Part shown: piece after piece, positions 9,474 through 40,511 of the stretch | How the letters are laid out: each line of letters starts with the position of its first letter | How positions within the stretch are numbered: the stretch's first letter is position 1 | DNA from: Salinigranum rubrum | GTDB taxonomy: Archaea > Halobacteriota > Halobacteria > Halobacteriales > Haloferacaceae | Assembly: GCF_002906575.1 (NCBI RefSeq) | Contig: NZ_CP026309.1 | Location: forward strand, 372,001 to 436,000 | DNA length: 64,000 bases | Direction: 5' to 3' | Notes under the pieces: model-generated | What the model saw: the letters and a program-made list of their open reading frames with translations, nothing else | Told to the model about the DNA's origin: nothing | The model's database searches: none | Position numbers and translations under genes: made by a program

Positions 9474-11000
9474 TCAGACGCGTTCGAGGTCGTACAGCGC
9501 GCCGTACTTCTCGGTGACGTAGTCGGTGAAGGCGTCGGCCGAGAAGTCCTCGCCGGTGGCTTCTCTCACCAGTGCGTTCGTCTCGTAGCGCTGGCCGTGG
9601 CGGTGGACGTTCTCGCGGAGCCACTCGCGCAGGGTGTCGAACTCGCCCTCGCGGGTCAGCGCGTCGACGTCGCCCAGGTCGGCCTCGGCCGCCTGGAACA
9701 GTTGTGCGGCCATCGCGCTCCCGAGCGAGTACGTCGGGAAGTAGCCGAACGACCCGTGCGACCAGTGGATGTCCTGCAGACACCCCTCCGCGTCCGTCTC
9801 GGGACGGAACCCAAGATACTCCTCCATCTTGTCGTTCCACACCTCGGGGACGTCCTCGACGCTCAGTTCGCCCGCGATGAGCGCGCGCTCGATTTCGAAC
9901 CGGAGGACGATGTGGAGGTGGTAGGTGAGTTCGTCCGCTTCCACCCTGATGGGGTTGTCCTCGTACACCTGGTTCACCGACTCGTACGCCTCCCGCGGCG
10001 TCATCTCCTCGATAGTGGGGAAGTACTCGGCCATCGTCGGGAGGAACCGCTCCCAGAACGCCTGCGAGCGCCCGACGTGGTTCTCCCACAGCCGCGACTG
10101 CGACTCGTGGACCGACAGCCCCCGGTGTTCGCCCAGCGGCGTCGCGTACGCGTCGTCGGGCAGACCGAGGTTGTACGTCGCGTGCCCGAACTCGTGGATG
10201 GTCGCGGTGAGCGCGTCGATGGGGTCTTCGGCCTTGAACCGGGTCGTCACCCGGGCGTCGAACTGCGTCCCGGTCGAGAAGGGGTGCGAGGAGGTGTCGA
10301 GTCGACCGCGCTCCCACGGGTAGCCGAGCATCGTCAGCGCCTCCCGGGCGACCTCTTCTTGCACCTCGGTGTCGAACTGCCCCGAGAACGCGTCGGTCGT
10401 GATGGGCGTCTCCGAGTCTCGAATCTCGTCGATCATCGGGACGAGCGTCTCGCGGATTTCGGTCAGAATCTCCTCGGCGCGTTCGAGCGAGAGACACGGC
10501 TCGTAGTCGGCGAACAGCACCTCGTAGGGGTCGGCGTCGGGGTCGACGTGTTCGGCGTACTGCCGCTTGAGGTCGACGAGTTCCTCGACGTGCGGGGCGA
10601 ACTGCGACCAGTCGTTCTCCGCCTTCGCCTGCTCCCAGATGGGCAGCGCCTCCGACGTCTTCTGTGAGATGCGTTCGACGAGGTCGGTCGGGACGCGCAC
10701 GGCGCGTTCGTAGTCTCGACGCACCTCGCGGACGACCGCCTCCCGCTCCGGCGAGAGCGTCTCTCCTTCCAGTTCGTCGAGGAGGTCACCGACCTCCTCC
10801 TCGGTGAGCAGTTCGTGCTGGAGCGCCGACAGCGTCGACAGTTGCTGTGAGCGCGCCGGCGTTCCCCCCTCGGGCATCATCACCTGTTGGTCCCACGAGA
10901 GGAGCATCGACGCCGCCTCGACGTTGTTGATCCGCTTTACCTTCGAGAGGAGTTGGTCGTACGCCTCGGGCGTCTCTGCGGTGGAGGGTTCGGTCGCCAT
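9474..11000 (-). CDS. M32-family metallocarboxypeptidase (Taq carboxypeptidase type)
   Basis: Protein of 508 residues. The zinc-binding HEFGH motif occurs in TATIHEFGHATYNLGLPDD, with the following conserved segment GLSVHESQSRLWENHVGRS supplying the third ligand (glutamate). The family motif IRVEADELTYHLHIVLRFE and the C-terminal GSFGYFPTYSLGSAMAAQ are intact. M32 enzymes remove C-terminal residues from peptides in the cytosol and work in peptide recycling. Length fits the family (about 500). ATG 11000 gives MATEPSTAETPEAYDQLLSK, a typical start. It is probably monocistronic. Confidence 0.93.
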   Translation of the reverse strand: MATEPSTAETPEAYDQLLSKVKRINNVEAASMLLSWDQQVMMPEGGTPARSQQLSTLSALQHELLTEEEVGDLLDELEGETLSPEREAVVREVRRDYERAVRVPTDLVERISQKTSEALPIWEQAKAENDWSQFAPHVEELVDLKRQYAEHVDPDADPYEVLFADYEPCLSLERAEEILTEIRETLVPMIDEIRDSETPITTDAFSGQFDTEVQEEVAREALTMLGYPWERGRLDTSSHPFSTGTQFDARVTTRFKAEDPIDALTATIHEFGHATYNLGLPDDAYATPLGEHRGLSVHESQSRLWENHVGRSQAFWERFLPTMAEYFPTIEEMTPREAYESVNQVYEDNPIRVEADELTYHLHIVLRFEIERALIAGELSVEDVPEVWNDKMEEYLGFRPETDAEGCLQDIHWSHGSFGYFPTYSLGSAMAAQLFQAAEADLGDVDALTREGEFDTLREWLRENVHRHGQRYETNALVREATGEDFSADAFTDYVTEKYGALYDLERV

Positions 11001-31119: not shown

Positions 31120-31713
31120 ATGGTTCGTGTCGACGACGCGGGAGACGTCACGAAGTGCTGGCTGTCCCCTGGTGAGCTTTCGACTCTCGAGCGGTCAGCT
31201 GGGAAAGACGGTTGGGAACGAGAGATCGCAGTCCAACTGATGGGGCGATGTGGCCTTCGAGCGTCCGAAGTGAGCTACCCCGGTGACGACCACCTTCGCT
31301 ACTCAGAAGAGGGCAGTGTGTGGCTGTTCGAGGTCCGCGGAAAGAACACGAAGGGTGGCGATCGTAAAACACGAGATGCTTGGATGCCCGATCACGTCGC
31401 CGACGACGTCCACAAGTACAGCCGTGAGCGGCGACTGGATCCATCGGAGTCGTGGGTCGACGTGAGTACGCCGTCGGTTCGTCGATGGGTGAAAGAAGCG
31501 GGAGAGGTGATTGCTGAGGATCTGGACGAACCACGGTGGCTGTCTGTGTCCTCGCACGACCTCAGGCGCTCGTGGGCGACGTACCACCTCGTCGAGCGGC
31601 AGGTCGACGTTCGGACGATGATGGCCATTGGTGGGTGGAGTGATTATTCAGCAATTGAACCATATCTTGCGGAACCAACCGAGGCGCGGATTGGAGAGGC
31701 AATGGGAACGTAG
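31120..31713 (+). CDS. Second tyrosine recombinase (short, orphan type)
   Basis: Protein of 197 residues containing only the catalytic domain: the first Arg in LMGRCGLRASEVSYPG, Lys in RGKNTKGGDRKTRD, HxxR in SSHDLRRSWATYHLVE, then IGGWSDYSAIEPYLAEPTEA with the nucleophile Tyr. No SAM-like N-domain is present, as in many haloarchaeal orphan recombinases of XerC/D type. It lies in the middle of the element rather than at an end. It may resolve element multimers or belong to an older nested element. No repeat was found beside it. Confidence 0.75.
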   Translation: MVRVDDAGDVTKCWLSPGELSTLERSAGKDGWEREIAVQLMGRCGLRASEVSYPGDDHLRYSEEGSVWLFEVRGKNTKGGDRKTRDAWMPDHVADDVHKYSRERRLDPSESWVDVSTPSVRRWVKEAGEVIAEDLDEPRWLSVSSHDLRRSWATYHLVERQVDVRTMMAIGGWSDYSAIEPYLAEPTEARIGEAMGT

Positions 31714-31854: not shown

Positions 31855-32307
31855 CTAGGACTGTACGTTTAAGTTGCTCGAGTACCAGCCTGGACCGCTT
31901 TGCTCCATACTCCCGTGGAAGATTCGATTGAGTTTGATTGGTTCATCGCCAGTCGGGATTACAGGGCCACTCCAGTTTTCGACATCGTCCACAACAAACT
32001 GGACACGTGGATTCCGCAAACTGAGGTAATTGACCCTGTCACGGAGTAGTCGGTGAATGTAGTCACATGCTACGTCTGCGTCATCGACCCCTAATAGATA
32101 GTCATCAAGTCCTCGAACAGTCATATCAAGCGGGATTTCCTCTCGACGCTTAAGTCGCCTAAGAAACTCGACGATACTCATCTCTTCGTCGAACATCCCA
32201 TAGTCGTCTAAGGCGTCTTCATCAATCACGTGGTAACCGATGTCGAGGTCGGAGGCCATTTGGATGTATGCTATTGTGTCATCATCTGTCTTAAATTTCC
32301 AGTTCAA
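31855..32307 (-). CDS. Hypothetical protein with unclear start
   Basis: The frame from TTG 32307 gives NWKFKTDDDTIAYIQMASDL after the initiator, 150 residues, very acidic and helical with LRDRVNYLSLRNPRVQFVVD near the middle. The ORF has no ATG at its natural upstream end: the in-frame upstream codons to a TGA contain none. An internal ATG at 32259 (MASDLDIGYHVIDEDALDD) lies 36 nt from an AAATTTAAG stretch. So the real start may be either of these, or the gene may have lost its 5' end. No function is recognised. It borders the collapsed methyltransferase fragment. Confidence 0.45.
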   Translation of the reverse strand: MNWKFKTDDDTIAYIQMASDLDIGYHVIDEDALDDYGMFDEEMSIVEFLRRLKRREEIPLDMTVRGLDDYLLGVDDADVACDYIHRLLRDRVNYLSLRNPRVQFVVDDVENWSGPVIPTGDEPIKLNRIFHGSMEQSGPGWYSSNLNVQS

Positions 32308-32342
32308 ACCAACAACAGGACGTCAATGATGTTAACACTATC

Positions 32343-32423
32343 TTACAAGAAATCGTTGACTTCTAACTGAGTGTCCGTACGCTCTGCAACGTAGTCCGCG
32401 AGGCTCGTGTACTCGGCATCATT
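32343..32423 (-). pseudogene. C-terminal remnant of a second DUF1156 methyltransferase
   Basis: Read on the minus strand, 26 codons plus stop encode NDAEYTSLADYVAERTDTQL then EVNDFL. The intact gene at 33235-35904 ends NDDEYANIADYVAERTDTQL then EFDDFF. Similarity begins abruptly at the first N. Upstream codons have no relation to the intact protein. This is the tail of a lost paralogue in the same orientation as the intact gene, and its partner is the solo domain at 32570. Confidence 0.8.
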
Positions 32424-32537
32424 CTTGACTGGTGGGGAAATTACTAAATTCGTTCATGTTGGTGATACTGAGTTACAGTAACAGGCGAGTGGAGTGTGGA
32501 GAAGACAAATGACATGGACATATTATTTCAAGGTGGA

Positions 32538-32544
32538 TTTAATA
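32538..32544 (+). promoter_or_regulatory. TATA-like box of the solo-domain gene
   Basis: TTTAATA is centred 29 nt before ATG 32570, the standard leaderless position. It suggests that the shortened gene is transcribed. Confidence 0.55.
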
Positions 32545-32569: not shown

Positions 32570-33016
32570 ATGAATCCCGCTGACGCAACTGTATTTTGGA
32601 TTGAAACAGGCGCGATGCAAGGAGAGAAACGGTATATTTTGGAAGTTGCGGAACACTTAGCCGAATTCTTTGACGAGAGAGGCCGAAAAGACGGCACTAT
32701 TGCTATCGGTCATCAAGGGACTGTTTGGCCGAGTCAAGAATTTAAACCTCACGATTCGGACCACTATTCGCCTCAGTGGCGAATCTTTCTCCCTCGCGCA
32801 TTTAGTCAGTTCTCACCGACTTATTACCCGAACAAGGTAGCACGGTTTGAGAAAGACACTACAGACGGTCAATGGTACACTGGACCATATTATGATTTAG
32901 TACTCAGAAATCCGTCACATACTGATGTTGATCGCTGGAGAAAAAATACTGAATCACAAGGGTTCAGAGATTTCACTGGGCAAGGAGACACTGGGCGAGA
33001 ATTTGGATATTATTGA
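32570..33016 (+). CDS. Solo C-terminal domain related to the PLD nuclease's DNA-binding-like domain
   Basis: Protein of 148 residues. It matches only the C-terminal domain of the intact PLD protein (36019-37074) from the ETGAMQG motif onward: ETGAMQGEKRYILEVAEHLA versus ETGAMQGQMRYILEIKEELA, SPQWRIFLP versus SPQWRVFLP, SHTDVDRW versus NHTDVESW, and final EFGYY versus EYGYW. No PLD catalytic part precedes it. In BfiI/NgoFVII-type enzymes the corresponding C-domain binds DNA; that equivalence here is inference. A promoter and a clean ATG suggest expression. It may be a left-over of a duplicate or a functional decoy. Confidence 0.7.
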   Translation: MNPADATVFWIETGAMQGEKRYILEVAEHLAEFFDERGRKDGTIAIGHQGTVWPSQEFKPHDSDHYSPQWRIFLPRAFSQFSPTYYPNKVARFEKDTTDGQWYTGPYYDLVLRNPSHTDVDRWRKNTESQGFRDFTGQGDTGREFGYY

Positions 33017-33234
33017 TTGATAAGACTGATCAGTTTTAATATACAAAAAGATGAGGGATCATCATGGGCAGTTTAGGTCCCTCATCACAGTAGCATGTCT
33101 CCTTCGTGTTGAATTCATCGATTGCGTAGTAACCGATGACAAAATCTAGGCTTATTGAGAGTATGTTTTGATAGCGTGTTATGAGCTAAACTACCATTGG
33201 AAACTAGATTAGTGAACGTAGAAATTATCAATCC
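33017..33234. other. Non-coding gap
   Basis: About 220 bp of AT-rich sequence between the solo-domain gene and the convergent methyltransferase stop. No gene or strong hairpin is seen. Confidence 0.4.
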
Positions 33235-35904
33235 TCAGAAGAAGTCGTCGAACTCCAACTGAGTGTCCGTACGTTCAGCCACGTAGTCCGCGATGTTCGC
33301 GTACTCGTCGTCGTTTTCTATATCGGCTAGTCGCCGAAGTGCTGCAATAGCACCCTCGTCGGTCCACTTACCAAATTGCTGTGAGAGCTTGTCCGCCTCA
33401 AACAAGTAACGGAGGTAGTGGGCTTTGTCGATTGCAAGGGGATTCCTCTTGTTCTCGATGCGCTCAGCGCGCCTGAGCGGCCCGAGTACATTAAGTGAAT
33501 CACCTTCTTGTTCTAGGAGTCCTTCACGGACAAGTTCAGCCACGTCGATTCCACGGGTTCGAAGATCTTTGTTGAGCGCATTGTACGAGATGCTGCCACC
33601 TCGCCCGAGAACGTAGGTGAGGTAGATTGCACTCAGAGTGTCCATTTCATCACCGAGGATTTGGACACGTTCCTCCATGAGCTGCTCATCGACGATGCCA
33701 CGGATGGTTTCGAGAGCCTTCTCCACCGACATCGTACCACCCTTGTGGGTGACGCTCGGGTAGTGCTGTGAGAACACCTCCAAGCACTTGCCCATTGTGA
33801 CCGCAAAGATGTCCCCTTGTGTGAGCCGAGAACCGCTCTGTTCGAGGCGCTCGATCTCTTGACTCGCTCGGAAGTAGATGTCATCCTCGATCGAACGCCA
33901 GCTCACTTCCTCGGGTTGCTCTTCCCGGTCTCGACACACCACGATCATGTCGTACTCAATGTTTGCCTTGTCGTGGATGTGGGTGCTCCCGCGCATTTCA
34001 CCACGAATCGGATAGAGTGCCGTGACGTAGAACCCAGCATCGAGAACAGACTGGAGCACGGTACTCCAACCCTCAGTCTCTTTATGATGGAAGGTGAACG
34101 CCATAATTCCACCCTCCTTGAGCTTCTGATTGGCCTGGTCAAAGACGTTAGTGAGCCCAGTGACAAAGTGGTCTTTGTCTCGGTACGTGTCAACGCTATC
34201 TTCGCCTGCCGGGTCACTCACGATTTCACTCGCTTTCGGCGTGAGGTCTGCGGTAAAGTGCTCGTACTCATCCTCGAGCACCTGCTTGAGCCAGACATAG
34301 TAGAAGTCCGCCGTCTCCGAGTACATCACATTGTCAAAGTAGGGCGGATCAGTAATGACAGCGTCAACGCTGTTGTCGTCTATCGGGAGGTATTCTGAGG
34401 TACCACAACGGAGATGTACATTATAGGTGGCATCAGTACTATCCCCAACAGGCTCGCCTATTTTGTCTGGATTGTCTGTCACGAACCCCTCAATTTTCCC
34501 CACACCATCCCGTTGCTTTGTTTCCCCATCCTCAACGTACTTTTCATACGGGTTCAGACAGAATTCTTTGCCTGCTCGCATCTTTTCAAATTCGGTACTA
34601 AACGTAGCGGCCCCCGCATCGGTGCCCCACACGTTGTTCTCGACAGGGGTGTGCCGTGCAGTGATGGTGTGGCGTTTGTACATCCCCTGAATCTTGTTCG
34701 CAGAGGTGTGGTACTCACAGAACATATTATTGAATGTTGTCGTGTCTGAGAACGCCAATAGGAGGAATTCCTTCACATTCTGATCTTCAATCTGTGAAAT
34801 ACCATCAAGGAGCTTCCCGAGACAGAGCAACTGTCGATCATTGAACATCTGATCGTATCGCTCATAGCCATGGTTCCGTGCCCGATCGGAGCTACCTCGG
34901 TAACGCTCTGTTGTTGGGATGGGCAACGAGTCCATTTTTTCTCCAAGCTCTTCTTCTGCTGCCTCGAACAATTCTCGATCGAATTCAGTTACGGACTTGT
35001 ATCCTTTCTTTTCTGTTTCAGGGCAATAGTATTCGACCGCAAAGAGAGATTTTTCAGCTCGTCCAAACCGCTTGACACTCTCGATAATGGACATTTCAGG
35101 GTGTTCGTCGCAATGAGGGCATGTGTATTTACCACGGGAAACATGCCCCGCATCGCTAGGTGTGTACTCGTGAGTACAATCTGGGCAGCTTGTCTCTGTC
35201 CTATAGTCGTCCGTCGTGTGGACGTTCCAACAGTCGGGACACACAACGTGGTAAAAACTATCTTTGGAGGATCGAGCGTTTGCTAACCTGTAGTCTTTGA
35301 ATAAGGGAACATTTTCTCCACAGTTTCTACAGGGCAGTTCATCGACCCAGAAGTAGTACATTGCATCTGCGTGTTCATCGCAGTGCGGACATTCCGTTCT
35401 ATAGTAATCTTGAATCTCTTGTCCAACGTCTTCTTCGAGTTTATTATAGGCCGAATCAAGTTCGTCGAGGTTAACTGGTTCAACCTCCTTCTTAACAACG
35501 AACCATGCGACTGGGTTCAACTCACTCCCAATCGCATTGCAGCCCATCCTGAGAGACTCTACAATAGTCGTCCCACCACCCATGAACGGGTCAAGGACAG
35601 TTTTTCCGTCAAAGTCGAGATCTTCAAGATAGTACTCCCAGAGAGAGTCCGGACTGTCCCAGTCTACCTCTGGGAGCCCGTTGTTTTCAGCAAACGTGGC
35701 CTGGCGTAGCCCTGCTACATTCATATCCTCGTCAGCCAGCGCGTAGATTAGCATAGTCCTGAAGACTGAGCCGAGGCGCCTGGCCCACCATTTGTGCATT
35801 GTGTACACTGGCCGGTAGTAGCGTTTGGCGTGTGCTTCGCGTTCAGCGATTGTGTTGACTTCTTCTATGGGGAAAGAAACCTCAATTGGGCGCCTATCGT
35901 TCAT
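33235..35904 (-). CDS. DUF1156-type DNA adenine methyltransferase (PglX-like)
   Basis: Protein of 889 residues. The N-terminal motif FPIEEVNTIAEREAHAKRYY and RPVYTMHKWWARRLGSVFRT define the DUF1156 (COG1743) family. LDPFMGGGTTIVES (about 104-117) is the AdoMet-binding motif and ITDPPYFDNVMY (DPPY at 519-522) the catalytic motif. Between them lie three or more Cys-rich zinc-ribbon segments (CPHCDEH ... CRNC near 172-194; CPDC ... CPDC near 222-243; CPHCDEH near 262). N6-adenine methylation is the expected reaction. It is divergent from the PLD nuclease gene with 114 bp between, and is the self-marking component of the module. Confidence 0.88.
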   Translation of the reverse strand: MNDRRPIEVSFPIEEVNTIAEREAHAKRYYRPVYTMHKWWARRLGSVFRTMLIYALADEDMNVAGLRQATFAENNGLPEVDWDSPDSLWEYYLEDLDFDGKTVLDPFMGGGTTIVESLRMGCNAIGSELNPVAWFVVKKEVEPVNLDELDSAYNKLEEDVGQEIQDYYRTECPHCDEHADAMYYFWVDELPCRNCGENVPLFKDYRLANARSSKDSFYHVVCPDCWNVHTTDDYRTETSCPDCTHEYTPSDAGHVSRGKYTCPHCDEHPEMSIIESVKRFGRAEKSLFAVEYYCPETEKKGYKSVTEFDRELFEAAEEELGEKMDSLPIPTTERYRGSSDRARNHGYERYDQMFNDRQLLCLGKLLDGISQIEDQNVKEFLLLAFSDTTTFNNMFCEYHTSANKIQGMYKRHTITARHTPVENNVWGTDAGAATFSTEFEKMRAGKEFCLNPYEKYVEDGETKQRDGVGKIEGFVTDNPDKIGEPVGDSTDATYNVHLRCGTSEYLPIDDNSVDAVITDPPYFDNVMYSETADFYYVWLKQVLEDEYEHFTADLTPKASEIVSDPAGEDSVDTYRDKDHFVTGLTNVFDQANQKLKEGGIMAFTFHHKETEGWSTVLQSVLDAGFYVTALYPIRGEMRGSTHIHDKANIEYDMIVVCRDREEQPEEVSWRSIEDDIYFRASQEIERLEQSGSRLTQGDIFAVTMGKCLEVFSQHYPSVTHKGGTMSVEKALETIRGIVDEQLMEERVQILGDEMDTLSAIYLTYVLGRGGSISYNALNKDLRTRGIDVAELVREGLLEQEGDSLNVLGPLRRAERIENKRNPLAIDKAHYLRYLFEADKLSQQFGKWTDEGAIAALRRLADIENDDEYANIADYVAERTDTQLEFDDFF

Positions 35905-36018: not shown

Positions 36019-37074
36019 ATGCTGCTCCCAAGTGGCCCAGGTATTTCGCCGAATTATGGGCAAGAAATATTTGAGACCATCTCAGAATTTGACCAACCGA
36101 TTAACGCTGGGGTTGCGTTCCCATTCGTCACGACCGACGGGTTGGACAATTATTGCTACAACAATTCAGGGGATGATTGGCGGGAGATCTGTGACTCCCA
36201 GTGGATAATCGGACTCAATCAGGGAATCACAACACCGAATGCATTAGAGGAACTCTTATCGAAAAGTCGGACTGATGTGAGGTTGTTTCTTCCCCGGGGG
36301 GAAGTCACTGAACAAGCCTTACGAAGAGGGCCTTATTTGCATGCAAAAGTGGGTGGCTTCTACTCTGAATCTACCAAGGATCAGATTTGTCTATTCGTTA
36401 CCTCCGCAAACGCAACAGGGGCTGCGATGAGTTCCCACCCGAAAAACTTCGAGATGGGTTCAAAATTATCATATCCTGACCGGATCGGTGCGGATGATAT
36501 CAGGATATTCCGTCAGTGGTGGGAAGAAGTCTCATCTAACACAGTCACATTGACTGAGGATCTAATTCGCGACTATGAGAGTGTTCGGAGTAATGTTCCA
36601 ACCTCACCACCAGAAGCTGAACAAAGCGATGTGCAACGAATAACCACCTCTTCTGATGCCAAATACATGTGGACAGAGACGGGGGCTATGCAGGGCCAGA
36701 TGAGGTACATTTTGGAGATTAAAGAGGAACTCGCAGACTTCTTCGAAGAAAAGACCCCCTCCGATTCGTACATCACGATTGAGTTCCGTGGTAACAGAGA
36801 GTCACGAAAACTCACATATCACGAGGGACATTATTCTCCACAATGGCGTGTGTTCTTGCCAACCAATTTCCCAGCACACAACGAAGACTTCTACCGTTAC
36901 AAGGTAGCACTGTTTGAGGAGCGGTTTACCGACAACGGTTCACGATACTACAGACTCCAGATCCGCAATAGGAATCACACAGATGTTGAGAGTTGGCGTC
37001 AGCAAGCGATTCAGAATGGGGTGAACGACGAGACGGGTGGTGGTGGAGATAGTAGAGAATACGGTTATTGGTGA
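36019..37074 (+). CDS. PLD-superfamily nuclease with C-terminal DNA-binding-like domain
   Basis: Protein of 351 residues. A PLD catalytic motif lies at H108-K110 (PYLHAKVGGFYSE) with S129-N131 (VTSANATG) and following NFEMG, a single HKD half-site as in dimeric BfiI- and NgoFVII-type restriction enzymes. A linker (about 190-211) leads to a C-terminal domain (212-351) that also exists alone at 32570-33016. I infer DNA cleavage as the role; the target is unknown. It ends inside the PglZ gene's 3' end (10-nt convergent overlap) and is divergent from the methyltransferase. Confidence 0.75.
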   Translation: MLLPSGPGISPNYGQEIFETISEFDQPINAGVAFPFVTTDGLDNYCYNNSGDDWREICDSQWIIGLNQGITTPNALEELLSKSRTDVRLFLPRGEVTEQALRRGPYLHAKVGGFYSESTKDQICLFVTSANATGAAMSSHPKNFEMGSKLSYPDRIGADDIRIFRQWWEEVSSNTVTLTEDLIRDYESVRSNVPTSPPEAEQSDVQRITTSSDAKYMWTETGAMQGQMRYILEIKEELADFFEEKTPSDSYITIEFRGNRESRKLTYHEGHYSPQWRVFLPTNFPAHNEDFYRYKVALFEERFTDNGSRYYRLQIRNRNHTDVESWRQQAIQNGVNDETGGGGDSREYGYW

Positions 37075-37964
37075 GTGACCTCGATCCGTGGAGTAAGACA
37101 TTCGTGTATGCTGAGGCCACCGTGCTGGTACGTCGAATACTTCCCTCTTCGTGGCCACGTGTACCGTCCGAGGGGCATGTAGAAGCCGTCGGCTTCGGCA
37201 ACGTAACCTTTCTCAACGAGGTCGTCAGCATCGACCTCGCCAACACTCTGGAACCGTCCGCCAGTGAATGTCTCCTGTAACCGCTTTTTCCAGCGATCAC
37301 TCACACCGAACGTGTGGCCAGAGTCTAGCCGTACGTACCCGTGGTCGGAGCCAAAGACAATGCGATCTGCATCAAGTTGGTCAACGATGGAGAGGAGCGC
37401 TCGCTCTGTCTTCTCGAACACCTCATCAAGAGAAGAGAGCTCCGTCTTCCCCTCCTGAATCGATTCGAGTAGTGCATCCGGATATCTACACCAAATGAGT
37501 TGTTCGTCGCCGTCAAGCGACGGATCCTGGCTCTTGACACTCGCTGTCTTGTGCTCGCTCTTGAGATCGGAGTATCCCACACGGTCACGATACGGAGTTG
37601 TCTCTGAGGGCACCGTGGAGAAGGAGTAGCCGACATTCGGTGTGAAACCCTTCGCCCCCAACGTCCGAACGAACAGCGACGCCTCACGGACGCTCATAGC
37701 ATCCATCACCACGAACGCGCCATCGTCCGGGATGTCTATCGAGGCTTGATGGACACAACGGTCGGCTAGGATGTCGTAGAACTCCGAGTACACATCTAAC
37801 AGGGTTCTCTCGTACCCGACCGCGGTAGGCTCACGGGCGTAGTGCTCACCTATGTCTTCCGCAGCTGGGGCCCAGATGTCCCAGAGGGAATCCCAGACGA
37901 CAGGGATGGGATCATCTTCTTCAATGAGTCGCTCGATTGCGTTATTCGTCAGTTTCACTCTCAA
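37065..37964 (-). CDS. Small PglZ-domain protein (alkaline phosphatase fold)
   Basis: Protein of 299 residues, much shorter than classical PglZ (600-900). VVMDAMSVREASLFVRTLGA carries the metal-binding Asp of the alkaline phosphatase superfamily; RIVFGSDHGYVRLDSG holds the later Asp-His ligands; GRYTWPRRGKYSTYQHGGLS and the final IHECLTPRIEV form the conserved PglZ end. PglZ is the only protein shared by all BREX systems, with nuclease or phosphodiesterase-like roles. Its start overlaps the DUF499 stop by 23 nt, so it is translationally coupled. Its 3' end overlaps the PLD gene in convergent orientation. Confidence 0.8.
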   Translation of the reverse strand: MRVKLTNNAIERLIEEDDPIPVVWDSLWDIWAPAAEDIGEHYAREPTAVGYERTLLDVYSEFYDILADRCVHQASIDIPDDGAFVVMDAMSVREASLFVRTLGAKGFTPNVGYSFSTVPSETTPYRDRVGYSDLKSEHKTASVKSQDPSLDGDEQLIWCRYPDALLESIQEGKTELSSLDEVFEKTERALLSIVDQLDADRIVFGSDHGYVRLDSGHTFGVSDRWKKRLQETFTGGRFQSVGEVDADDLVEKGYVAEADGFYMPLGRYTWPRRGKYSTYQHGGLSIHECLTPRIEVTHQ

Positions 37965-40466
37965 TCACCAGGTCAGCACCGATGTGGTTTGCACTCGGGA
38001 GCTTCTGAAGGAATTCTATGAGCTCCTCCTTAGAGAGGTCAGCCAAATCGTACGAGAGGTCGATGTGAGTCACTGTATCCTCGCTCTCACTAATTCTCGA
38101 CTCAGCCATACTGCGAAGTACGCGACCGGAGTTTCCCTCTAGGTAGACGTTCTTCGTGGTGGAGGTTGTCCCGATCGTGGTTCCTCCACCGCCACCACCA
38201 GTCGCTCCGGTGGATGTCGTTCCGGAACCACCTCCTCCACCGGATCCGGTGCCTGCAGTAGTGGTGCCACCTGTCTGTCCTGTTCCCCCTTCCGTCCCCC
38301 TTGTAGATGTTGTCGTCTTTTCTTCCTCGAATATCGCGTCATCTAGCGAGTCAGGGTGACGGATGACGAGCGAATCCTCAAGGTCAGGCATACGATCACC
38401 CTTGTGGGGGACGTAGAACTTAGCGTGGTCTCCTTCAAGTACGATCTTCTCGTCGTCGTAGAGCTTTCTGACCGCTGAATAGAACAGGTTGTCGTCAATG
38501 AGCACAGGCATCCTGCGGAATGCCTTGAAGTCGTTTTTCATCGACTTCAGGGTGATGCCGTTCGCTGTTCCTTCGACCTCATCAAGGATCGTCTCACTGA
38601 CGTAGGTCTTGTCACGCCCGACACTGTTTTCAACATCGCTGACACGGGCTGCGACGTTCTTTCGTCGCATTCGCAGGTCACCACTCGGGTCCACGCTCCA
38701 CTTCACCCACTTCCCGTATCTGTCGGAGAGTTCGTTGGTGAGTTCCCGGCGCTCGTCACGAATCAGACGCGACAACTCTCCTTTGTCGTCATCGACCTTA
38801 CCTTGGAGATTCTGTGCACCCAAGACCCGTGCTGCCTTCTTGATGATGTCCTCATCCTCGAGAAGCTGCTTTTTTGGGGTGACGAACAACACCGTGTTTT
38901 GGTACGTTCGTCCCTCGAAGAACTCACTCAGCTCTGCCTCAAGCGTCCCGTTCGAGAGGTAACTGAGAGTAACAACAACAGAGAGAGAATCGTTGTCAGG
39001 AATATCGTCGTTTGGGTGCACGAGCACATCCCCATCCCAGACATCGTTTCGAACGATATCGACGAGTGTCTCCTCAATGGATGCCGAGTCATCCTCCAAA
39101 ACCCGGTTCTGTTCCCGGGTGACAAGCGCAGTCAGCTTGGGGTCTTCTGTGATGTAGTAACTCGCACCACCGGAGTCCCGATCAAGATAGTGAGCCGTCC
39201 CATAAAGGCTGCTCAACGACATGTTGAGTTTGTCTACGGATGATTTCTCGGGTTTGAACGTCCCGAGGAGGCATTGCGTCACGGTTGCCATCTGTGACCG
39301 CTCATCCAATGTGTAGAGCAGAATTGTTCGGAGCAGGTCATCCCCAAAGTCGATGTCCTTCACGTGGTCTCGGTCAGAGACATAGCGGTTGAACAGCGTC
39401 TGGTTCATACCACGGAAGGCAGCTGGCCTGATGTCGCACGTAACAATGAGATCCGTTTCGTCGTACTTCCGACTGACTGTGTCTGCGAGAACGTTCATCG
39501 CGCCACGAACACTCTGTTGTTCCCGACCCGCCTCATACAGGCGGTCGAGGAGTTCGAGAAGTTCGGGGTGGAACGGATACGTCTCCACCATCCGATTCTC
39601 GTATCGCTGGAGCTCACCCAATTCCTCGGGGTTAATTGGGTTGTTGTAGTGGTCGGTATAGTTCTCGACGACATCGCGTACACCAGATTCATCAATTTCC
39701 TCACGGGGGTTTCGAAGAGTCGGTGAAGGATAATGCGTTCACGGTCTCCCGTGTCGTTCATGTCTACTGCGTAGGGGTTTGTCCGGTTGAGGATGCGTTT
39801 GAACCCGGGACTCTTATCGAGCAGAGTGACGAATACGAACAGGTTCCTCTCAGGGTCGTTTGCGACCTCAAGTAGATTCTGAAGGAAGAACTCGTTCCGT
39901 TCGAGGAGTTCACCGTCTTCGTCTCTGTCGAAGGATTCCCACCAGGTCTCGATTTCATCGAAGAAAATGGCGACTGTGTCATCTCCAACTAATGCTTCGA
40001 TGTGCTCCGTTGTGGGGTACCGCTTGATCCCTTCGAGGATTTCGGAGCCGTTGAGATTGTCAAAAATCGGCTCCCAAATTTGGTCAGCGTCCGTTTCGCT
40101 GGTTGATAGAATCGATGCCCGTGTGGTGTCCGGAAGTGGAAGGTCAATATTCCATTCGGCAAGCCAGTCTTTGCTAATGTTCGGACTGTTGAACAAGTGA
40201 TAGAGAGTAATCAGACCATGCGACTTCCCTGCACCGTATGGCCCTGAAAGTGTAATTCCCCCCTGGCTGTCGCTACCTCGAAGCTTGTCGTCAACGCGCT
40301 CAAAGGCAGTCTGTAGGGCGTTCGATGGGTAGGTCATCGAGAGGAGTCTTGTAGGATCATTCTCCAAGCGATCGGCGGAGTCACCGACTTTGTGGGCTTG
40401 AAGTACCCCTTGGAATTGGCCCTCAATTACCTCCTCGCGGGGCTGGAGGAGATCTGCGATTTGCAT
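37942..40466 (-). pseudogene. DUF499-type ATPase (BrxC/PglY-like), one-base frameshift
   Basis: The N-part (from ATG 40466) starts MQIADLLQPREEVIEGQFQG with Walker A ITLSGPYGAGKSHG (near residue 71-84) and Walker B VAIFFDEIETWWES (165 on). The C-part has HPELLELLDRLYEAGREQQS, a Gly/Thr-rich linker near 38150-38330, and a final SYDLADLSKEELIEFLQKL. The frames meet at GGGGG 39705-39709 (plus strand): one added base gives FETPREEIDESGVRDVVENY in frame and a protein of about 841 residues. The DUF499 (COG1483) family includes PglY/BrxC. A GTG 45 nt upstream is an alternative start. The break is likely a sequencing error, but if real the module is dead. Confidence 0.78.
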
Positions 40467-40511
40467 ATACTCGTCCGTGTCACCACCAGCACTTGATGCT
40501 TTGCACAGCAC

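Follow-up and report, generated by a model that had tools for sequence, protein, structure and literature searches.

Does a reading frame that corresponds to only the C-terminal domain of a neighbouring PLD nuclease represent a working gene, and what might a nuclease-free recognition domain do beside a defence operon? This question is raised by an open reading frame at 32570-33016 (forward strand) of the window, by which we mean the whole 64,000-nucleotide stretch of the Salinigranum rubrum genome analysed here (contig NZ_CP026309.1, positions 372,001 to 436,000). The preliminary description of this DNA had suggested that the frame may be expressed and act as a decoy, inhibitor or target selector rather than being debris.

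The stand-alone gene and its relatives

The frame starts with an ATG, contains no internal stops in the open reading frame list or the translation and encodes a solo B3-like DNA-recognition domain of 148 aa (hereafter the solo), a designation based on the reading frame, homology and predicted fold. In a single pairwise comparison the protein matched residues 212-351 of the PLD protein encoded at 36019-37074 (46% identity, 145 aa, E 6e-37), with the first solo residue aligned to the PLD protein lying three codons after the solo ATG. TAG and TGA stand in frame immediately 5' of that ATG, and inspection of the translated frames by eye revealed no PLD-like sequence 5' of the gene. The open ATG gene at the domain boundary of the PLD protein is therefore real, as first described, and the reported TATA-like box is also present (TTTAATA, 32538-32544, forward strand), with its centre 29 nt upstream of the ATG. 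Shuffling the 146-nt leader of the solo 5000 times gave such an element at that distance in 4.1% of cases; in the window it occurred at 19 of 8972 positions sampled, and at 12 of 507 sampled where the upstream sequence is similarly AT-rich, although the pattern behind these rates was set post hoc, with the sequence already known. The chance rates lend modest backing to a promoter for the solo, and its only stand-alone counterpart, described below, also has a TATA-like element at equal distance from its ATG. The gene's own promoter, claimed at the outset, is thus plausible as a predicted promoter-like element.

Relatives of the solo protein were detected in 5 of 391 genomes of a class sample, 4 of 170 of a family sample and 6 of 392 of an order sample, while a phylum sample gave 2 of 392, both found before; the genome of the window is itself counted in these numbers, and the four sets overlap. 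Stand-alone copies across all genome searches numbered two, that of the window and one in Halorubrum sp. Boch-26 (G187; locus L040, NZ_JARANT010000002.1), the remaining relatives (G249, G238, G107, G347 and G004) being C-terminal portions of PLD proteins. The Boch-26 solo, from a different genus, is likewise 148 aa long and is 68% identical to the window solo in an alignment that starts from the same ATG and has no indels, and it is encoded on the operon strand, with PglZ on one side and DUF1156 on the other. No PLD relative of the window type was found in the Boch-26 genome (assembly 95% complete, 180 contigs), so the solo is retained there without the nuclease. Conversely, none of the genomes of the five PLD-fusion relatives outside the window carries a solo, and the same solo gene was found beside no other DUF1156/PLD pair, the sole other solo being without a PLD partner. 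No solo relatives were present in the sets of viral contigs, phages and plasmids, and a mobile origin of the solo was rejected on this ground.

In a tree of eight domains the two solos pair with support of 89/98, the value of 89 being below the tool's starred level, and the window PLD protein is placed close by. To judge from their identical start and length, both solos go back to an ancestor that was probably stand-alone already, with two sequences being too few to indicate a long history. Differences between the two genes fall at 34, 26 and 83 sites of codon positions 1, 2 and 3, respectively (dN 0.21, with synonymous sites saturated), and this third-position excess points to purifying selection. 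When neutral mutation was simulated to the observed divergence, a stop was gained in 298 of 300 runs. The branch of the window solo is longer than that of Boch-26 (0.36 vs 0.11), but a relative-rate test between the two was not significant (15 vs 9, p 0.31). Of 27 columns without variation among the other five close members, the window solo deviates at 3, compared with 2 of 26 for the Boch-26 solo and 3 of 27 for the window PLD protein. An intact stand-alone gene conserved in two genera without indels, with differences mostly at third positions, agrees with the original view that it is not mere debris.

Predicted folds of the solo and its PLD neighbour

Modelling of the solo with AlphaFold2 from eight sequences gave a pLDDT of 86.6 and a pTM of 0.85. 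Foldseek alone returned no match to this model at E values up to 0.001, with plant B3 domains on top (best 2.1e-3), but re-alignment of the Foldseek candidates placed the BfiI recognition domain 3zi5 first (Z 11.5, rmsd 2.9 over 126 residues), with BfiI 2c1l at Z 10.7, LlaJI at 8.7 and UbaLAI at 8.1, while plant B3 domains reached a Z of at most 7.5. Searches of Pfam, PADLOC and NCBIfam with the solo gave no match, and a profile search of PDB sequences yielded chance-level hits only (E 0.43 and worse). On the model, the solo is a B3-like DNA-recognition-type domain, and the DNA-binding-type domain proposed from the sequence takes a more specific predicted form, with the BfiI recognition domain as its best match. 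BfiI is a type IIS PLD enzyme whose C-terminal recognition domain (3zi5, 2c1l) shares the predicted B3-like fold of the solo, whereas the solo lacks a nuclease domain and the structural match is at 11% sequence identity. Compared with BfiI/NgoAVII-type enzymes, a predicted B3-like domain is present and accounts for all 148 aa, while the N-terminal PLD domain is absent. According to the part of PMC4267653 consulted, the B3 domains of BfiI and R.NgoAVII bind their site as monomers when isolated, so the solo could bind DNA unaided.

The PLD neighbour (36019-37074, forward strand) encodes a predicted PLD nuclease of 351 aa with a C-terminal B3-like domain, assigned from a structure model and conserved residues. 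Its model is poorer than that of the solo (pLDDT 72.5, pTM 0.52) and matches the SauUSI PLD domain at Z 16.8, the NgoAVII R-protein 4rct at Z 10.8 and BfiI 2c1l at Z 14.3 over 263 residues, the last with an rmsd of 14.6 that leaves the placement of the domains uncertain. HKD-type residues accompany the B3-like domain, with H108, K110 and N131 invariant in 6 of 6 sequences, and the modelled protein as a whole looks BfiI-like, with the same order of PLD and B3 domains. DISARM DrmC was rejected as its identity, the match (E 9e-4) being far under the cut-off. R.CglI and R.NgoAVII share this PLD plus B3 make-up, and their R-proteins act with a separate ATPase according to the part of PMC4267653 consulted; their partners are a DEAD/Z1 helicase and a C5 methyltransferase, whereas DUF499, PglZ and DUF1156 proteins are found here. 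Among the five PLD relatives outside the window (L030, L031, L032, L090 and L091), a large methyltransferase-like gene adjoins four (two assigned by Pfam as Eco57I and two by eye from translations), the fifth lying at a contig end, and this association speaks for the PLD-B3 protein acting in restriction. In those four loci (L030, L031, L090 and L091) the adjoining gene encodes 1008-1249 aa, and the two genes scanned contain Eco57I, HSDR_N and TaqI_C domains, a pairing of a BfiI-like nuclease with a type IIG-like enzyme.

Operon context and rearranged flanks

The operon of the window comprises four reverse-strand genes. A DUF499 ATPase gene (37942-40511), identified by homology and Pfam, is interrupted by a frameshift near 39705-39708, as residues 1-253 and 255-834 of the H. 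rubicundus homologue, itself a single frame of 834 aa, match it in two frames. Pfam DUF499 scores 31.7 bits on the 3' frame of the window gene (cut-off 23), while the NCBIfam DUF499 model reaches 53 bits on the H. rubicundus homologue, short of its cut-off of 1200. The split may be a real frameshift or a sequencing or assembly error; if real, the defence operon of the window may be inactive. The PglZ-like protein (37065-37964, 299 aa) is assigned from weak profile matches, namely PADLOC PglZ (6.4e-5), NCBIfam BREX PglZ (8.4e-5, under the cut-off) and Pfam PglZ (14.1 bits, under the cut-off of 25), and a plasmid homologue is annotated as alkaline phosphatase. Pfam and homology identify a DUF1156-type adenine DNA methyltransferase of 889 aa (33235-35904; N6_N4_Mtase 1.3e-15, DUF1156 26.2 bits vs a cut-off of 24). 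The small fourth gene, ORF150 (31855-32259), is probably 134 aa long from an internal ATG, to judge from its sequence; it has no match in Pfam or NCBIfam, and relatives occur in all 17 mapped systems.

The 17 mapped operon relatives are L028 (Boch-26), L029, L078-L089, L092, L093 and L094; L090 and L091, which contain PLD relatives only, lie outside this set. No solo or PLD gene separates PglZ from DUF1156 in 16 of the 17, where the matched ends are 5 to 41 nt apart, and the solo is present in one (Boch-26), which makes it an optional part. The window differs in layout, with the PLD gene between PglZ and DUF1156 on the opposite strand and the solo past the other DUF1156 end, outside the operon and also on the opposite strand. 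The DUF1156 proteins of the window and Boch-26 are 83% identical, compared with 68% for PglZ and 65-74% for DUF499, a pattern that would fit a methyltransferase that moved independently of PglZ and DUF499. The four-gene operon recurs in haloarchaea, including the Halorubrum lacusprofundi plasmid pHLAC01 (L099), and in Natrialbaceae archaeon CCL63 (L093, about 10079-10081) the DUF1156 match is split between residues 55 and 56, probably by a frameshift.

The operon has a DUF499 ATPase and a DUF1156 adenine methyltransferase in common with the type-3 DUF499-centred BREX-related (BR) systems, PADLOC 'Hma', as presented in the sections of PMC12839542 covered here, and it has a candidate for their separate PglZ protein in the weakly matching PglZ-like gene. 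No Swi2/Snf2 helicase was found at the system locus in the five genomes tested, all of which have PF00176 matches elsewhere, and the operon is therefore not filed as a type-3 BREX-related member. The additional PLD-B3 or solo B3 gene is a further difference, being unmentioned in the covered sections of PMC12839542, and a word search for 'B3 domain' and 'B3-like' in its main text gave 0 matches. PMC12839542 reports an iSTAND protein in 82% of type-3 BREX-related cases, and its abstract describes questions about the mechanism as open. The S. rubrum genome also contains, on contig C3 (L033), a further DUF499/DUF1156 system that is only distantly similar (28-38% identity), with an SNF2-type helicase domain close to it (C3:32144-32896).

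The flanks of the solo contain degraded copies of operon genes on the reverse strand. To its left, a second DUF1156 3' end (32342-32429, about 28 codons plus the stop, 80% over 82 nt to 33234-33315) stands beside the intact ORF150, while to its right, a second ORF150 5' end (33114-33204, aligned locally to 32218-32309) stands beside and downstream of the intact DUF1156 gene, with an alignment score reached by 0 of 2000 shuffles. Both remnants are parts of a 207-nt repeat of 68% identity, which identifies the locus as a rearranged mosaic and, judging from these similarities, one produced by duplication or by recombination with a diverged relative. Compared with intact DUF1156 tails, the remnant is 77% identical to the window's own and 69% to that of Boch-26, with values of 54-71% for the 15 of the 17 mapped systems compared. 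An integration through crossing-over within this repeat of 207 nt may also have occurred. A frame of the phage-integrase family (31120-31713, forward strand, 197 aa, Pfam 4.2e-10), possibly a truncated recombinase, is located near the rearranged segment. The layout, initially regarded as unfamiliar, is thus partly a rearrangement scar.

Candidate roles of the solo

We tentatively favour, at somewhat less than even confidence, a reading in which the solo is a real B3-like gene from a BfiI-type enzyme and serves as a sequence reader, that is, an accessory target-recognition factor of the DUF499-PglZ-DUF1156 system. The model rests on a predicted fold and on an intact gene that has been under purifying selection and that two genera keep in stand-alone form next to the same system. 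The tree and the domain make-up of the relatives suggest that the solo was once the C-terminal recognition domain of a PLD enzyme of BfiI type, whose nuclease was lost or split off. By analogy with BfiI and NgoAVII, it would bind a short asymmetric site as a monomer, and it could then mark unmethylated sites for the neighbouring BREX-related DUF499-PglZ-DUF1156 complex; the solo, the PLD protein and the methyltransferase would share one site. Against the model, the frameshifted DUF499 may mean that the supposed partner system of the window is dead and that the solo has been left there without a partner complex, and the window solo lies off the operon, on the other strand and amid rearrangement scars.

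A parallel is offered by the solo specificity subunits known from restriction systems, HsdS among them, in which sequence recognition resides in a separate protein; the likeness to the solo is one of working only, with no homology in any result here, where the match is to the B3 fold. Each part of the locus is of a known kind, and what is new is a stand-alone B3 gene in a DUF499-PglZ-DUF1156 context; no description of a stand-alone B3 gene of restriction-enzyme origin was found in the open-access literature searched. How BREX-like complexes find their target DNA is still debated, and if the reader model is true, a nuclease-free reader encoded in the operon would offer a handle on this question. 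It would also mean that restriction specificity domains work as separate parts, which bears on the exchange of target recognition among defence modules. A broader proposal, which we consider on the unlikely side, is that the freed B3 domain serves a helicase-less BREX-related system as an exchangeable targeting subunit, with strains having the reader alone (Boch-26), the reader plus PLD-B3 (the window) or neither (16 of the 17 mapped systems).

The solo could alternatively be the roleless surviving tail of one of two tandem methyltransferase/PLD pairs that was mostly deleted, and the flanking DUF1156 3' and ORF150 5' debris does occur in the order expected of a decayed ORF150-DUF1156-PLD unit, in a system whose DUF499 gene is broken. 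We regard this as unlikely, as Boch-26 has a stand-alone gene aligned from the same ATG, the differences between the solos are biased to third positions without a single indel, and by eye the 146-nt stretch from the DUF1156 remnant to the solo ATG looks like neither DUF1156 nor PLD sequence, so that it does not have the appearance of a simple deletion joint. A simple origin by tandem duplication followed by deletion accounts for the order of the genes and their strands but leaves that 146-nt stretch and the Boch-26 gene unexplained, and it is retained as a rival.

A solo that proved to be a regulator or a guard instead of a reader would nonetheless remain a free-standing B3 protein derived from a restriction enzyme. 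As a regulator, it would control transcription of the defence operon in the manner of a restriction controller protein, which would suit a protein that is small and of DNA-binding type, whose gene has a TATA-like element to itself in either genome and whose fold is also matched by plant B3 transcription-factor domains (Z up to 7.5). This is rather improbable, because the closest folds are recognition domains of restriction enzymes (Z 11.5 to 8.1) and because the Boch-26 solo lies inside the operon.

Least probable, and in our view quite doubtful, is that the solo binds the site of the PLD nuclease and so shields host sites or competes with the enzyme. Both proteins are encoded in the window, the solo lacks the PLD domain that forms a dimer in relatives (according to the part of PMC4267653 consulted), and the predicted DNA-contact arms, placed post hoc from the B3 topology, are alike in the two proteins at 13 of 17 positions compared with 53 of 126 elsewhere (Fisher p 0.0075). 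Boch-26, however, keeps its solo without a PLD relative, with the reservation that its assembly is a 95% complete draft, and the five genomes with PLD fusions elsewhere have no solo. The decoy or inhibitor role first proposed is therefore not supported as a general one, while that of a target selector survives, less likely for the PLD protein than for the BREX-related complex.
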